This document shows, piece by piece, positions 32,004 through 37,506 of a DNA stretch of 64,000 nucleotides. Made by a program: the position numbers and the translations under genes. The notes below the pieces were generated by a model, which did no database searches, had not been told where the DNA came from, and worked only from the letters and a program-made list of their open reading frames with translations. How positions within the stretch are numbered: position 1 is the first letter of the stretch; each line of letters starts with the position of its first letter. This stretch comes from Dyadobacter fermentans DSM 18053 (GTDB taxonomy: Bacteria; Bacteroidota; Bacteroidia; Cytophagales; Spirosomataceae), in contig NC_013037.1 in NCBI RefSeq assembly GCF_000023125.1, forward strand, positions 6,054,501 to 6,118,500, written 5' to 3'.

Positions 32004-33068
32004 ATGCAAAAAGTACTTGTAATCGGCTTGGGAAAGGTAGGCTCGCTGGTGGGCACTTTGCTGAGCAAGCGGTTCCTCGTGACGGGCGTCGATAGGGCCC
32101 AGCCCGCCGTTGCACTGCCGTTTCAGGTGGTGACCGGCGATGTGAACGATTCCCTCTTTGTAGAAAGTGTGTTAATGGGCTTCGATGCCGTGGTGTCGTG
32201 CATGCCCTACAACCTGAACCTTCCCATTGCGCGCCAGGCACATAAGTCGGGCATTCATTATTTCGATCTGACCGAAGACGTGCCAACAACTGCCGCCATC
32301 CGCGAAATGGCGCAGGATAGCCGCAGCGTACTGGCGCCGCAATGCGGCCTGGCGCCGGGCTTTATCGGTATCGTAGGCATGGATCTGGCCAAACGTTTTA
32401 CCAAAATCCGTGATATCGAGCTTCGCGTGGGTGCATTGCCCCGCTATCCGAACGGCCTGATGGGCTATTCCTTCACCTGGTCGCCTGCCGGCGTGGTGAA
32501 CGAGTACCTCAACGACGCCGAGGTGATCCACAACGGCGTGCGGAAAATGGTGCCCTCGCTGGAAGGGACCGAGATGATCAATATTGAAGGACAGGAGTTT
32601 GAAGCATTCAGCACTTCCGGCGGCCTCGCTACCATGTGCGAGACGCTCGAAGGCAAGGTGGATACATTGAATTACAAAACCATCCGCTACCCCGGGCATT
32701 GCAGCCTGATGCGCTTCCTGCTATATGAGCTGTGCCTGAAAGACAAGCGGGCATTGGTAGAGGAAATCCTGACGGAAGCCAAGCCGCCCGTGCAACAGGA
32801 TGTGGTGTATGTGTATGCCGTGGTGGAGGGCTGGAAAGGCGATCACCTAGAACGGGAAGAATTTTACCGCGCTTACCATCCCATTGAAATTGATGGCCAG
32901 CATTGGCGGGCTATTTCCTGGACTACCGCGGCTTCCATCGCGTCGGTAGTGGAAATGGTGGCCGACGGTGTATTGCCGGACAGGGGCTTTGTCAGGCAGG
33001 AAGACATTCTGCTGGACGATTTTTTCAAAACCCTGAACGGCTGGTACTTTACGCAAAACAACGATTGA
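32004..33068 (+). CDS. Saccharopine dehydrogenase family protein (LYS9-like)
   Basis: The 354-residue protein has a Rossmann N-terminus (VLVIGLGKVGSLVGTLL) and a saccharopine-dehydrogenase-like second domain (LAPGFIGIVGMDLAKRF, YSFTWSPAGVVNEYL, and FSTSGGLATMCETLEGKV). In the saccharopine pathway such an enzyme splits saccharopine into glutamate and 2-aminoadipate semialdehyde. The next gene, 6 bases downstream, is an ALDH7-type dehydrogenase that would take the semialdehyde. The partner lysine-ketoglutarate reductase is not in this window. Confidence 0.85.
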   Translation: MQKVLVIGLGKVGSLVGTLLSKRFLVTGVDRAQPAVALPFQVVTGDVNDSLFVESVLMGFDAVVSCMPYNLNLPIARQAHKSGIHYFDLTEDVPTTAAIREMAQDSRSVLAPQCGLAPGFIGIVGMDLAKRFTKIRDIELRVGALPRYPNGLMGYSFTWSPAGVVNEYLNDAEVIHNGVRKMVPSLEGTEMINIEGQEFEAFSTSGGLATMCETLEGKVDTLNYKTIRYPGHCSLMRFLLYELCLKDKRALVEEILTEAKPPVQQDVVYVYAVVEGWKGDHLEREEFYRAYHPIEIDGQHWRAISWTTAASIASVVEMVADGVLPDRGFVRQEDILLDDFFKTLNGWYFTQNND

Positions 33069-33074
33069 GGCGCT

Positions 33075-34613
33075 ATGACGGACATTGTTGATATTCTAAA
33101 TAGACTAGGCATCCGGACCGAAAACCACGGCGTAACTACCGGGACGGCCAGCTGGGAGGGCGGCGGCGCATTAAATGAATCGTTCTCGCCGGTGGATGGT
33201 GCAAAAATAGGGGCGGTGCGCCAGGCTGCCAGCGAGGATTACGACCGGGCGGTGGAAGCGGCTGCGCTTGCATTCAAAAAATGGCGCAGCATACCGGCGC
33301 CCAGGCGCGGAGATATTGTACGGCAAATGGGCGATCAATTGCGGGAGCGTAAGCACGAGCTGGGTACGCTTGTCAGTTATGAAATGGGCAAGAGTGCGCA
33401 GGAAGGCTTGGGCGAGGTGCAGGAGATGATCGATATCTGTGATTTTGCTACCGGACTTTCAAGGCAGCTTTACGGCCTCACGATGCACAGCGAGCGCCCG
33501 CAGCATCGCATGTACGAGCAGTGGCATCCGCTGGGCATTACCGGCATTATTACGGCGTTCAACTTCCCGGTGGCCGTATGGTCCTGGAATGCGATGATCG
33601 CCTGGGTGTGCGGCAATGTGTGCGTGTGGAAGCCTTCGGAAAAAACACCGCTGACTGCCCTTGCTTGCCAGCAAATTATCCTGTCTGTGCTGAGGGACAA
33701 TGACTTGCCCGAGGGCGTGTCGTGCGTGGTGACTGGCGGCCGGGAGGTGGGTGAATGGATTGCGCAAGATACCCGGATCGCCCTCGTGTCGGCCACGGGA
33801 AGCATTCCGATGGGCCGTTCGGTAGGGGAGCAGGTGGCTCGCCGACTGGGAAAAAGCCTGCTCGAACTCGGGGGGAACAATGCGATTATTGTCACGCCCA
33901 GCGCGGATTTGAAAGTAGCGATCCCCGCCATCGTATTCGGCGCGGTGGGCACGGCCGGGCAGCGTTGCACATCTACCCGCAGGCTGATCGTCCATGATTC
34001 TATTTTCGACGAAGTGAAAACCCGTTTGATAAGCGCCTACGGCCAGTTAAAAATTGGTAATCCACTCGATCCAGCCTATCACGTCGGTCCGCTGATCGAC
34101 CGGCATGCGGTAATGCAGTATGAAAAAGCCGTGGAGGAAATCAGGCAGGCGGGCGGGACGTTTGCCGTGGAGCCGGGCGTGCTGGAAGGGAATGCTTATG
34201 CGTCGGGGTGCTATGTTTCGCCGTGTATTGCGGAGGTGGAAAACCACTGGGCCATGGTGCAGCACGAAACTTTCGCCCCGATCTTATATCTGATCCGCTA
34301 TCATGATGTAGATGAGGCTATTGCCGTTCAAAACGATGTGCCGCAGGGTCTTTCGTCAGCCATTTTTACGATGGATTTGCGCGATGCCGAGCGGTTTCTC
34401 TCGCACACGGGCTCCGATTGCGGCATTGCAAATGTCAATATCGGTACTTCCGGCGCTGAAATTGGCGGTGCATTTGGCGGGGAAAAGGAAACGGGCGGCG
34501 GCCGGGAGTCGGGGTCGGATGCCTGGAAAGCTTATATGCGGCGGCAAACGAATACGATCAATTACGGAACGGCGCTGCCATTGGCACAGGGAATAAAGTT
34601 TGAGATTGACTAA
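33075..34613 (+). CDS. Aldehyde dehydrogenase, ALDH7-like (2-aminoadipate semialdehyde dehydrogenase type)
   Basis: The 512-residue enzyme has the ALDH catalytic set: LELGGNNAIIV (general-base Glu) and TAGQRCTSTRRL (nucleophile Cys, with the flanking RRL of the ALDH7 group), plus WNAMIAWVCGNVCVWKPSEKTPL for the cofactor site. ALDH7 enzymes oxidise 2-aminoadipate semialdehyde/piperideine-6-carboxylate. Its close spacing behind a saccharopine dehydrogenase supports a lysine-degradation role. The substrate assignment is inferred from family resemblance and neighbour. The ORF ends 61 bases before the PqqD-like gene. Confidence 0.88.
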   Translation: MTDIVDILNRLGIRTENHGVTTGTASWEGGGALNESFSPVDGAKIGAVRQAASEDYDRAVEAAALAFKKWRSIPAPRRGDIVRQMGDQLRERKHELGTLVSYEMGKSAQEGLGEVQEMIDICDFATGLSRQLYGLTMHSERPQHRMYEQWHPLGITGIITAFNFPVAVWSWNAMIAWVCGNVCVWKPSEKTPLTALACQQIILSVLRDNDLPEGVSCVVTGGREVGEWIAQDTRIALVSATGSIPMGRSVGEQVARRLGKSLLELGGNNAIIVTPSADLKVAIPAIVFGAVGTAGQRCTSTRRLIVHDSIFDEVKTRLISAYGQLKIGNPLDPAYHVGPLIDRHAVMQYEKAVEEIRQAGGTFAVEPGVLEGNAYASGCYVSPCIAEVENHWAMVQHETFAPILYLIRYHDVDEAIAVQNDVPQGLSSAIFTMDLRDAERFLSHTGSDCGIANVNIGTSGAEIGGAFGGEKETGGGRESGSDAWKAYMRRQTNTINYGTALPLAQGIKFEID

Positions 34614-34631
34614 TTAAAATTTCTAACTTTG
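34599..34631 (+). promoter_or_regulatory. Bacteroidota promoter (TTTG - N21 - TAACTTTG) of the PqqD-B2 cassette
   Basis: TTTG at 34599-34602 (-33) and TAACTTTG at 34624-34631 (-7) are spaced by 21 bases, a good full match to the phylum promoter. The predicted start is 5-8 bases downstream of 34631, giving a leader of about 35 bases before the PqqD-like ATG at 34675. The -33 part overlaps the end of the aldehyde dehydrogenase gene. Confidence 0.7.
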
Positions 34632-34674
34632 TACTATGCGGTTTCACACAATTCATTTAGTTTAAACTTTACCA

Positions 34675-34941
34675 ATGAAATACCAGCTTACATCTGAACA
34701 GATTTCGTCCAAGGTTGCCGGGGAAACAGTAATTCTCAACCACAACAAAGGCGCATATTATGGTCTCGATGAAGTTGGGGTCCTGATCTGGGACACATTG
34801 GAACAAGGGCCGCAGACCATCGAAGCGCTGTGCGAGGTAGTGACCAATGAATATGAGGTAGATCCCGGCGACTGCCAAAGCGATATCGACGCGCTGTTGC
34901 AGGAGCTGATTTCGGAAGGGCTGGTTGAAACAATCCAATAG
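34675..34941 (+). CDS. PqqD-like protein (peptide-binding chaperone, RRE-type)
   Basis: The 88-residue protein has the PqqD winged-helix pattern. An N-terminal beta-strand region (GETVILNHNKGAYYGLDEVG) is followed by the helical part IWDTLEQGPQTIEAL and the C-terminal DIDALLQELISEGLVETI. PqqD-like domains bind the leader part of peptide precursors in PQQ, lasso and other RiPP systems. It is the first gene of a four-gene cassette, and the lasso B2-like gene begins 3 bases after its stop. Confidence 0.85.
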   Translation: MKYQLTSEQISSKVAGETVILNHNKGAYYGLDEVGVLIWDTLEQGPQTIEALCEVVTNEYEVDPGDCQSDIDALLQELISEGLVETIQ

Positions 34942-34944
34942 GTT

Positions 34945-35385
34945 TTGAGCAAAATCGGTAAGCTGATACGGAGATGGCGGAACTTGTCCGGACCGGAGAA
35001 ATGGATTTTTCTGCGGGCAACCTGGTGCTTGCTTTGGATTAAAGCCGGGCTCGTACTGCTACCCTTCCCGACGTTCAGAAAATGGTACCATCGGCTAAGC
35101 AGCCCCAGCCGGTTGCAGGAACCCGATCCGGGTCTTACGCAGCGGACCGTGTGGGCTGTCGACACTGCTGCCAATCTCCTGCCGTTAGAACTTTTGTGCC
35201 TTCCCAGGGCGCTCGCCACCAAATACCTGCTTCGTAATTTCCCTGCACTAACCCTTGAAATCGGAATAGAGATCAATCCCGCGAAACAATTCGAGGCGCA
35301 TGCCTGGGTGGAGCAAAACGGCAACATTATTATCGGGCGCTGGCCTGAAACCGTTTCCTACAAGCGGCTCTGGGTTTGGGAATGA
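34945..35385 (+). CDS. Lasso peptide biosynthesis B2-type protease (transglutaminase-like)
   Basis: The 146-residue protein matches the B2 leader-peptidase family: a basic N-terminus (KLIRRWRNLSGPEKW) with hydrophobic helix, then the catalytic Cys in LLCLPRALA (Cys85) and the His in FEAHAWVE (His119), with QNGNIIIG following. In lasso pathways B2 removes the leader in concert with a PqqD-type B1. Start TTG 34945 is adopted because no ATG is available. The gene overlaps the next by the ATGA pattern. No precursor or cyclase is visible nearby, so its target is unknown. Confidence 0.88.
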   Translation: MSKIGKLIRRWRNLSGPEKWIFLRATWCLLWIKAGLVLLPFPTFRKWYHRLSSPSRLQEPDPGLTQRTVWAVDTAANLLPLELLCLPRALATKYLLRNFPALTLEIGIEINPAKQFEAHAWVEQNGNIIIGRWPETVSYKRLWVWE

Positions 35386-36323
35386 TTAATTTTGAATCAA
35401 CACACATGCATTATTACATCGCTTTCGGGCTTCATATCCATTCAGAAATTTCCTTGCCCGAACTGGCCGAAGGCGACGCGCATTCCGTAGCCGAAATCTA
35501 TATCCGCAAAGGCGAGGTCCGCCTGCCAGCCATGCATCCCACCCGCATTTTCCGAAGGGGCATTAAAGCTGCGTTCGGTGAGGACGAGAGCCAGGCATTG
35601 TACCTGAATTGGCCCAACGTGGCATCTTTCAAAGCGTCGGGCGGTAACGAGCTGGTCGTATCTCCCGTCGCATCCGACCCGGATATCATTAGCCTTTTTA
35701 CGGTAAGCGAAGCATTAGGACTCATTTTGTTTCAAAGAGGGCACTTTTTGCTGCATGCGAGCGCGGTGGTGGTGGGTGAGGAGGCCTGGTGCTTCATGGG
35801 AATGCCCGGTGCAGGGAAGTCGAGCACAGCTGCGGCGTTTATCAAAGCCGGTTGCAGATTGTTGAGCGACGACCTTACGGCGATCACTTTTGACGAAGCG
35901 GGGAAGCCATTTATCTTGCCCGCTTATCCGCAATTGAAGATTTGGGAAAGAACGGTAGCCGGGCTGCAATATGATCCGTCGGACTTGGAACCGGTGAGTG
36001 AAGGAGTTAATAAATACGCTTACCAGCCCCGCGAGCAGTTTACTGCACAGCCTGTTCCGCTTAAAAAGGTCTTTTTTCTGCACAAAGCGAGGAACAAACC
36101 TGAATTTCAGAACCTGGGCATTGCCGAAATACCCGGCGAAATGCTGCGCAATTTTCCATTGCCCGCGTCCCTCATCGCCGATAAAAATCTGAAAAGACAT
36201 TTCTTCCAAAGCCTGCAATGTGCCCGGTCGGCCGAAGTGCTTCGGAGAAGACGTCCGGAAGGTTTTGAAAAGCTCGAAAAATGGGCTGAGGACAGTATCC
36301 GTGAACAGCTAATCGCGGAATGA
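35382..36323 (+). CDS. HPr kinase/phosphorylase-like ATPase (HprK-related kinase)
   Basis: The 313-residue product has a C-terminal HprK-like fold. It shows FLLHASAVVVGEEAWCFMG, Walker A in the MGMPGAGKSS segment (Lys148 counted from a TTG start at 35376) and LLSDDLTAIT for the acidic motif. A non-HPr N-terminal region of about 120 residues precedes it. HprK-like kinases occur in lasso and other RiPP clusters, where they phosphorylate the precursor peptide (as in paeninodin). I infer phosphorylation of a peptide or protein, target unknown. The ATG at 35382 overlaps the B2 stop as ATGA, which favours it. Confidence 0.85.
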   Translation: MINFESTHMHYYIAFGLHIHSEISLPELAEGDAHSVAEIYIRKGEVRLPAMHPTRIFRRGIKAAFGEDESQALYLNWPNVASFKASGGNELVVSPVASDPDIISLFTVSEALGLILFQRGHFLLHASAVVVGEEAWCFMGMPGAGKSSTAAAFIKAGCRLLSDDLTAITFDEAGKPFILPAYPQLKIWERTVAGLQYDPSDLEPVSEGVNKYAYQPREQFTAQPVPLKKVFFLHKARNKPEFQNLGIAEIPGEMLRNFPLPASLIADKNLKRHFFQSLQCARSAEVLRRRRPEGFEKLEKWAEDSIREQLIAE

Positions 36324-36324
36324 T

Positions 36325-37506
36325 ATGCAGCGGATCGAAATTTCCCGAGAACTGGCTTACCTGGTGGAAGCGGCAGTCAGGCCGTCGGACCACCAGCCGT
36401 TTTCAGTCGGAAATGCTCCTTTTGACCCGCAAAAATACCTAGCACTGGCCAAATGGCATCAGATAAGGCCGCTCGCATTCGAACATGCCGCGGAGAAGTC
36501 GCTGGACCTGCCCGCCCCCGTGCTGCGTTCGCTCCGCGAATTTACGCTTGGGCAGGCTGTTACCAACATGGCCTTTCTGGGCATCTGCGTGCGGCTGTAC
36601 AACAGGTTGGCCGACAATGGCATTAAAGTATTTCCCATGAAAGGCGCGCTTTGGGCGTGGATGCTTTACGATAAGCCCGCCTCGCGCGAGTTTGGCGATA
36701 TCGACTATTTCGTCGACCGTAATGATGTCTCCAAAAGCCTGGACGTGCTGCTGGACGAAGGCTTTGCGGCGGATAGTTACCGCCATTATCTTTTGAAGCA
36801 AAAAGCCGTAGTGGGCGATTACCTTGATACGGATTATCAGCTGCCATTAACTCCTTTGCAGGACCATACATTACAATCGCTTGAAATACAGTGGAATTGC
36901 ACCTATCCCCGCTATTGCTACAATTTCACATGGGATGAACTGGCCGGTCAGCGTGTCGCGTTCAGCATGATGGGAAAATCGGTGCTTGTGCCGCCAATGG
37001 AAATTCAGCTCATGATGATGGTCATTCACCACGGTGGGGTGGAGCAGTGGGATAAATTGAAATACATGGCGGATTTTGTGCGGTTGCTGGATAAGTCGGC
37101 GGCGACGCTGGATTGGGCCTATGTTAGCCGCATTACGCGGGAGAAAGGCTTCCACAAACTACTGCTCGAATCACTGGGCGTGGCAGGCTGTCTTACCGGC
37201 CGCGATTACCTCGCTCAGGCGGGAGCAGGCCCAGGCTATCCTTCGCAGGATTTTTTACAGGAAATCCTGACGCACTGGGAGAATGAACGGCCGGCCCTCA
37301 AAACCAAAACTTGGCGGATTTTCTTCTATAATATAAGGTACCGCGACAGATGGTCGGATAAACTATCCATTGTCGCGGCACACCTGGGTTACCTTACCCA
37401 CTGGAGATTGCTGAGGCACAAGATGATCTGGTACAAAAAACGGCCGTTAAACGAGGCGGACGGTGATCGTGCCGTCAATGCTATGGCCGGGCGCCAGAAT
37501 TTGTAG
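36325..37506 (+). CDS. Nucleotidyltransferase family protein (PF14907-like)
   Basis: The 393-residue protein shows the nucleotidyltransferase site of this uncharacterised family. FPMKGALWAWMLYDKPASRE (Lys106) leads to GDIDYFVD, with the paired aspartates at 125 and 127. The rest is helical. PF14907 proteins are often found beside HprK-like kinases and PqqD/B2 genes in RiPP-like loci and may add a nucleotide to a peptide or protein. The gene starts one base after the kinase stop. Its last 60 bases overlap the convergent aldose epimerase gene. Confidence 0.88.
   Translation: MQRIEISRELAYLVEAAVRPSDHQPFSVGNAPFDPQKYLALAKWHQIRPLAFEHAAEKSLDLPAPVLRSLREFTLGQAVTNMAFLGICVRLYNRLADNGIKVFPMKGALWAWMLYDKPASREFGDIDYFVDRNDVSKSLDVLLDEGFAADSYRHYLLKQKAVVGDYLDTDYQLPLTPLQDHTLQSLEIQWNCTYPRYCYNFTWDELAGQRVAFSMMGKSVLVPPMEIQLMMMVIHHGGVEQWDKLKYMADFVRLLDKSAATLDWAYVSRITREKGFHKLLLESLGVAGCLTGRDYLAQAGAGPGYPSQDFLQEILTHWENERPALKTKTWRIFFYNIRYRDRWSDKLSIVAAHLGYLTHWRLLRHKMIWYKKRPLNEADGDRAVNAMAGRQNL

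Follow-up and report, generated by a model that had tools for sequence, protein, structure and literature searches.

The 64,000-nucleotide stretch of the Dyadobacter fermentans DSM 18053 chromosome analysed here (the window) contains a compact cassette of four genes, encoding a PqqD-family protein (B1), a B2 leader peptidase, an HprK-like kinase (K) and a nucleotidyltransferase-fold enzyme (N). With a probability of roughly 0.92, we consider this cassette to be the B1-B2-K-N part of a lasso peptide pathway that is split into two unlinked loci, the precursor (A) and the cyclase (C) being encoded together about 605 kb away on the same chromosome. Which parts are present, how far apart they lie and how they co-occur can be read directly from the genome sequences.

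The whole genome is a single contig and gave one match each for PqqD, B2 and PF14907, all of them in the window. The precursor-cyclase (A-C) locus is at G000:C1:5,484,729-5,486,849 and holds the sole match to the Asn_synthase family in the genome (C1:5,484,837-5,485,970). The cyclase has 647 residues. The comparison set was made up of cyclases near B2 in other Spirosomaceae, and the protein matched those of loci L115 (25% identity, E 2e-58) and L116 (28% identity, E 9e-53). Thirty bases upstream of the cyclase, on the same strand, a 49-codon open reading frame (ORF), MRTVISHSTQTKKSYRKPVLNKLGNVAKLTKGKIGSQEDEDGDFDFNED, matched the lasso leader model NF033521 at 22.3 bits (cut-off 19). Its leader has a YRKPVL motif, with Tyr(-17), Pro(-14) and Leu(-12), and Thr(-2), which is the usual residue in lasso precursors (PMC10368454). 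The predicted core, GKIGSQEDEDGDFDFNED, has Gly1, Asp8 as the likely ring acceptor, and Asp as its last residue. Relatives of the ORF in some Dyadobacter carry the NCBI name 'lasso RiPP family leader peptide-containing protein' (RiPP, ribosomally synthesised and post-translationally modified peptide), so the precursor gene is not new to annotation. The original prediction proposed that the cassette may process and modify a peptide or protein encoded elsewhere, and for a peptide this is probably right given a precursor and cyclase at another locus of the same genome. Its further suggestion of a non-lasso system, in which the B2 protease and the nucleotidyltransferase have new roles, was dropped once these two genes had been found: the distant precursor has a lasso leader, the best model for its neighbour is a lasso cyclase, albeit with a score below the cut-off of that model, and 27 of the 47 other Spirosomaceae genomes compared have such a cyclase no more than 20 kb from B2.

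All four genes of the cassette are on the plus strand. The PqqD/B1 gene (34675..34941) encodes a RiPP recognition element (RRE) of 88 residues that matches PF05402 (3.5e-20). Four PDB sequences were matched by this protein, including 9x90 ('lasso peptide biosynthesis PqqD family chaperone'), 5v1u and 6jx3, the last two of which we take to be the lasso B1 proteins TbiB1 and TfuB1, respectively. The lasso leader peptidase B2 (34945..35385, TTG start) has 146 residues, matches PF13471 (5.9e-21) and scores 87 bits against NF033537, lasso_biosyn_B2 (cut-off 33); its predicted catalytic residues are Cys85 and His119, the Asp of the triad not having been located. The putative peptide kinase K (35382..36323) has 313 residues from an ATG inside ATGA, and its residues H127, K148, S149, D165 and D166 are numbered here on the 315-residue ORF that begins at the TTG at 35376 (minus 2 for the ATG start). 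N (36325..37506) is a 393-residue protein that matches PF14907 (1.1e-50) and carries Asp125 and Asp127. Profiles and conservation confirmed the family calls for PqqD, for B2 with Cys85/His119 and for N with Asp125/Asp127; the kinase family was matched only weakly. PDB sequence searches with B2 and with K gave no match at E ≤ 0.1. The AlphaFold2 model of N (pLDDT 88) had one Foldseek match in the PDB at E ≤ 0.001 (5uvd, 6.2e-4), and weaker matches included the nucleotidyltransferase-fold enzymes LnuA, ANT(2'')-Ia and FKRP (E about 0.04); we treat these structural matches as hints. The HPr-rel-A system (TIGR04352/TIGR04353) was also considered and rejected, as the model for HprK-related kinase A gave 34.0 bits against a cut-off of 200 and that for its PqqD partner 31.2 against 35. 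The gene spacing of 3 bases, a 4-base overlap and 1 base is as originally described. So is the lack of a precursor or cyclase, none being found among the genes of the cassette, while inspection of its ORF list by eye revealed no exporter, no search having been aimed at exporters.

A promoter-like site (34599..34631, plus strand) precedes the cassette, as had been claimed, and consists of TTTG at 34599-34602, 21 bases, and TAACTTTG at 34624-34631. The TTTG-N21-TAACTTTG consensus, taken over from the original prediction, is presumably of the Bacteroidota type. In 24 of 29 Dyadobacter loci, the 200 bases before PqqD contain a match to the pattern TTG-N(18-22)-TAnnTTTG, compared to 6 of 2000 random stretches of 200 bp.

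The cassette is retained across the genus. A scan with B2 yielded 22 named Dyadobacter loci, in every one of which the order is PqqD-B2-HprK-PF14907 and the site is the same, ahead of aldose epimerase and ftsH. B2 was detected in all 48 Dyadobacter genomes (47 plus the window's own), above the cut-off in 112 of 210 Spirosomaceae genomes, but in only 18 of 396 genomes sampled from the class (24 if every match at E ≤ 0.001 is counted). The B2 proteins of 29 Dyadobacter formed one clade (support 0.97). C85 and H119 of B2, H127, K148, D165 and D166 of K, and D125 and D127 of N were identical in 29 of 29 Dyadobacter. The median ratios of nonsynonymous to synonymous substitution (dN/dS) in nine close species were 0.054 for PqqD, 0.071 for B2 and 0.077 for K, with 0.081 for N in eight species, values that are rough because synonymous sites are near saturation. 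In four of the 22 loci (L002, L014, L015 and L016), N is only about 30% identical to the N of the window, as if it had been replaced in situ by another PF14907 member. In the window, N and the convergent aldose epimerase share 60 bases at their 3' ends (37447-37506). The genes before the cassette (32004-34613) encode a saccharopine-dehydrogenase-like protein and L-piperidine-6-carboxylate dehydrogenase; neither matched anything in the stretches fetched for L012 and L013, though the cassette stays there.

The distant half is equally widespread in Dyadobacter. The cyclase was present in 48 of 48 genomes and the precursor in 47 by protein search; the 48th genome, G447, has a precursor by motif. 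We collected 56 A-C loci, comprising 55 fetched cyclase loci and that of the window species. An ORF with the precursor pattern was found in 53 of them. In 49 cases it precedes the cyclase by no more than 420 bases; it lies on the opposite strand in L257 and L259 and about 2 kb off in L260 and L261. The pattern was absent from L242 (G471) and from the weak cyclase hits L262 and L263. Among the small ORFs of the 22 cassette loci, taken as a control, it occurred in 1 of 3664, and shuffling gave 2.95 of 5701. We devised the pattern with the first precursors already in view, and it requires [LI]T and an acid at positions 5-12, so T(-2) is not independent evidence. Core starts were likewise set by the [LI]T rule and core features were counted by eye. 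In the predicted cores, Asp or Glu occupies position 7-9 in 48 of 49 and position 8 in 41 of 49, with L252 having an acid at position 10 only, and all 49 have Gly-Ser with Ser at position 4-6.

To describe the distance between the two halves and their co-occurrence, only cyclases of 300 bits or more were counted. In Dyadobacter, 20 of 48 genomes have B2 and the cyclase on a common contig, separated by 559 kb to 4.8 Mb, and the other 28 have them on separate contigs. The genes of the pathway therefore do not lie in one cluster in this genus, clustering being a usual rather than a chemical feature of the lasso class. Uridine kinase accompanies A-C in 46 of 56 loci, so the surroundings of the two halves differ. 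Apart from the 27 in which the cyclase is close to B2, the 47 other Spirosomaceae genomes comprised 9 with the two genes at least 100 kb apart, 10 with them on different contigs and 1 without a cyclase. These figures leave aside 17 further Spirosomaceae with B2 above the cut-off, of which 16 were without such a cyclase at ≥300 bits and one (G550) had a B2 fragment only, as well as a second, weak B2 of G464 (26.9 bits), whose own locus, L170, has another cyclase-like gene. Across the 210 Spirosomaceae genomes, a cyclase of this type was present in 97, B2 in 112 and both in 95 (Fisher 5e-39, uncorrected for phylogeny); because the genomes are related, this value cannot be read as a probability of function. 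Completeness is 80-83% in the two genomes that have the cyclase only.

Lasso-like loci of other arrangements were seen among the relatives. By the B2 tree, the closest relative outside Dyadobacter is G539 (L178, L125; support 0.937), in which PqqD, B2, a precursor and a cyclase follow aldehyde dehydrogenase in one stretch, with PorU2 beyond. The lasso-like loci L081, L084 and L086 contain several short precursor-like ORFs (KPE..., ...TLAG or similar), at least 6 in L081, three in L084 and two in L086. In L099, L111, L114, L131 and L135, the precursor-like ORFs immediately before the cyclase terminate in IPS, which is reminiscent of the C-terminal Ser of paeninodin precursors, and B2 and an HprK-like kinase are near. 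L126, L160, L164 and L166, from different genera, have three tandem genes of the same cluster in a stretch with a lasso-type B2; the member in L126 is a phage-tail-collar-domain protein (PF07484), and sulfotransferases are near in three of the four loci.

For the steps catalysed by these proteins, we infer the following scheme. K would phosphorylate the conserved ring Ser of A, with B1 helping. B1 would hold the YxxPxL leader and present A to B2, which would cut after T(-2)-K(-1), and C would join Gly1 to Asp8 around the tail. N may transfer a nucleotide- or sugar-derived group to the phosphoserine. Phosphorylation of the peptide by K is somewhat favoured, while group transfer by N is the less secure step and is offered tentatively. 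The closest known counterpart is the Bsf cluster of Bradymonas sediminis (PMC10368454), which has A, B1, B2, C, K and N parts, a YxxPxL motif at -17 to -12, a Gly1/Asp8 ring and a C-terminal Asp, as here. The residues H148/K169/S170/D186/D187 of BsfK have the same spacing as H127/K148/S149/D165/D166 of K (PMC10368454). In contrast, Bsf is a single cluster with an ABC transporter (D) and Ile(-2) (PMC10368454), whereas here A-C is unlinked from B1-B2-K-N, the leader has T(-2), Ser is at 4-6, no exporter was seen by eye (none was searched for), and PorU2 and a lipoprotein adjoin A-C. The kinases PadeK, ThcoK and PsmK of paeninodin and pseudomycoidin share the His-Lys-Asp-Asp motif with K (PMC9266682), and PsmN, the nucleotidyltransferase homologue of pseudomycoidin, is reported to install hexose on phosphoserine (PMC9266682). 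However, these peptides are modified at the C-terminal Ser (PMC9266682), and the last residue of the core in the window species is Asp, which excludes the C-terminal Ser route of paeninodin. A better precedent is BsfK, which acts with the aid of B1 on ring Ser3 of a precursor that likewise has a C-terminal Asp (PMC10368454).

Five Dyadobacter genomes combine more than one A-C locus with a single B2, so the cassette might act as a hub common to several pairs. Three precursor-cyclase pairs were found in G443, along with a weak hit to a fourth precursor (E 0.009); in G446, G466, G453 and G486, a second cyclase-like gene is accompanied by a precursor-like ORF nearby in the stretch. These copy counts are lower bounds, as the genome searches scored limited candidates (5 per genome for the cyclase). 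One cassette may thus serve all A-C pairs of a genome. The mean corrected distance over 26 genomes was 1.41 for the cyclase, compared to 0.31 for PqqD, 0.50 for B2 and 0.13 for uridine kinase (25 genomes), suggesting that the leader-reading parts are steady and that the precursor-cyclase modules change.

Several results weigh against assigning the two loci to one lasso pathway. Three of the proteins fall below the cut-offs of their expected models: the cyclase scores 145.8 bits against NF033535, its best NCBIfam model (cut-off 525), PqqD 67.1 bits against NF033536 (cut-off 80), and K 19.3 bits against the HprK model PF07475 (cut-off 33.3), with the HprK models of both Pfam and NCBIfam giving sub-threshold scores. 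No exporter was seen by eye at the A-C locus, where no search was aimed at exporters. The precursor frame of G471 has a stop, and the cyclase frames of G447, G452, G460 and G475 have one stop each; these stops could reflect decay or sequencing error. The promoter-like pattern was found before 3 of 49 precursors compared to 24 of 29 PqqD genes, and as it is not common to both loci we claim no shared regulation. Finally, a mirror-tree comparison of cassette and cyclase, with the distances of three control genes removed, gave a partial r of 0.10-0.15, a small signal that does not prove co-evolution of the two beyond the species tree.

The neighbours of the A-C pair raise the question of a second substrate. 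Convergent with the cyclase is a gene for PorU2, a sortase of the type IX secretion type (NF052324, 875 bits, cut-off 450), and upstream of the precursor is one for a 239-residue protein with a lipoprotein-like start. A model of the latter matched the putative lipoprotein 4fvs (E 4e-5, template-modelling (TM) score at most 0.47) and, with lower TM scores, LolA proteins; these matches are hints. PorU2 and the lipoprotein were present in 47 and 44 of the 56 A-C loci, respectively, and in other genera too they adjoin the cassette or the cyclase. PorU2 was in the fetched stretch of 21 of the 26 cassette-locus cyclases that match our cyclase at ≥99 bits. The distances of cyclase and PorU2 gave a partial r of 0.88. 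These findings, together with the divergent N of four Dyadobacter loci, would fit a pathway in which the cassette serves A-C but K and N have also gained another target, such as a type IX cell-surface protein. We regard this as improbable. The r of 0.88 would also arise from neighbours moving together, for example by joint transfer; PorU2 occurs in 172 of 210 Spirosomaceae genomes, often in several copies, and is therefore not specific to lasso loci; and the conservation of the kinase and of the ring Ser fits the peptide as substrate. We offer an involvement of PorU2 in the biology of the peptide as a lead rather than a result.

Less probable still is a non-lasso RiPP cassette like the linear polyphosphorylated peptide (LPP) system of Bacillota, in which an RRE, a kinase and a nucleotidyltransferase act on a linear peptide, here with B2 as leader peptidase and without a cyclase. 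LPP does have a discrete RRE, an HprK-like kinase and an NTP transferase (PMC13381572), the same classes as in our cassette, which itself contains no cyclase. It differs in that B2 is replaced by a signal-peptidase-like LppS, a cyclase is lacking and the transporter is MsbA-like, and its reported distribution is confined to Bacillota (PMC13381572); loss of lppN had no visible effect (PMC13381572). The D. fermentans genome, by contrast, has a lasso-cyclase homologue with a lasso precursor, and the LPP motif YxxPxVLxHQxIxFETxxS was absent, by eye, from the 49 listed precursors, in which the acid at 7-9 is nearly universal. On these two features, LPP membership was rejected. That the four genes are an idle remnant or decayed copy of a lasso cluster is hardly credible: no A or C is beside the cassette and the two are adjacent to it in some relatives, but the low dN/dS values (0.054-0.081, with synonymous sites near saturation), the identical catalytic residues, the constant gene order, the genus-wide retention of B2 and the presence of A and C in the same genomes all argue against decay.

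The split lasso pathway proposed here is thus built from parts with known counterparts in Bsf, paeninodin, pseudomycoidin and LPP, and its new aspects are that the split is fixed, that the cassette may be a hub and that PorU2 is linked to A-C. Citrulassins also have a lasso tailoring enzyme (PAD) encoded outside the cluster (PMC12971885), but there a single tailoring enzyme is outside (PMC12971885), whereas here the genes for recognising the leader, removing it and tailoring the peptide are all separate from A-C. A literature search covering lasso peptides in Bacteroidetes and in Dyadobacter/Spirosoma, split or scattered clusters and trans-encoded parts did not find this arrangement described in the titles or the starts of abstracts of the papers listed, a part of those matched, with most subscription papers lying outside the library; in that library, no paper joining 'lasso peptide' and 'type IX secretion' was found. 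Taken further, the lasso pathway of Spirosomaceae might be modular, with a conserved trans-acting B1-B2-K-N hub phosphorylating, decorating and cleaving the precursors supplied by A-C modules, which change fast and are exchanged jointly with a PorU2-type sortase dedicated to them, and with the ring-phosphorylated peptide acting at the cell surface with the type IX system as a ligand, an inhibitor or an attached group of PorU2 or its cargo; this broader model is speculative and, as it stands, rather unlikely.

Lasso clusters are usually found through side-by-side genes. With a genus-wide split, mining by cluster encounters two fragments, neither of them complete, and the pathway may be overlooked. 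A shared hub serving several precursor-cyclase pairs, if true, would be a natural version of what peptide engineers attempt and would account for diversifying cores behind unchanging leaders. PorU2, as a frequent neighbour, offers a testable lead on the function of such peptides in Bacteroidota.

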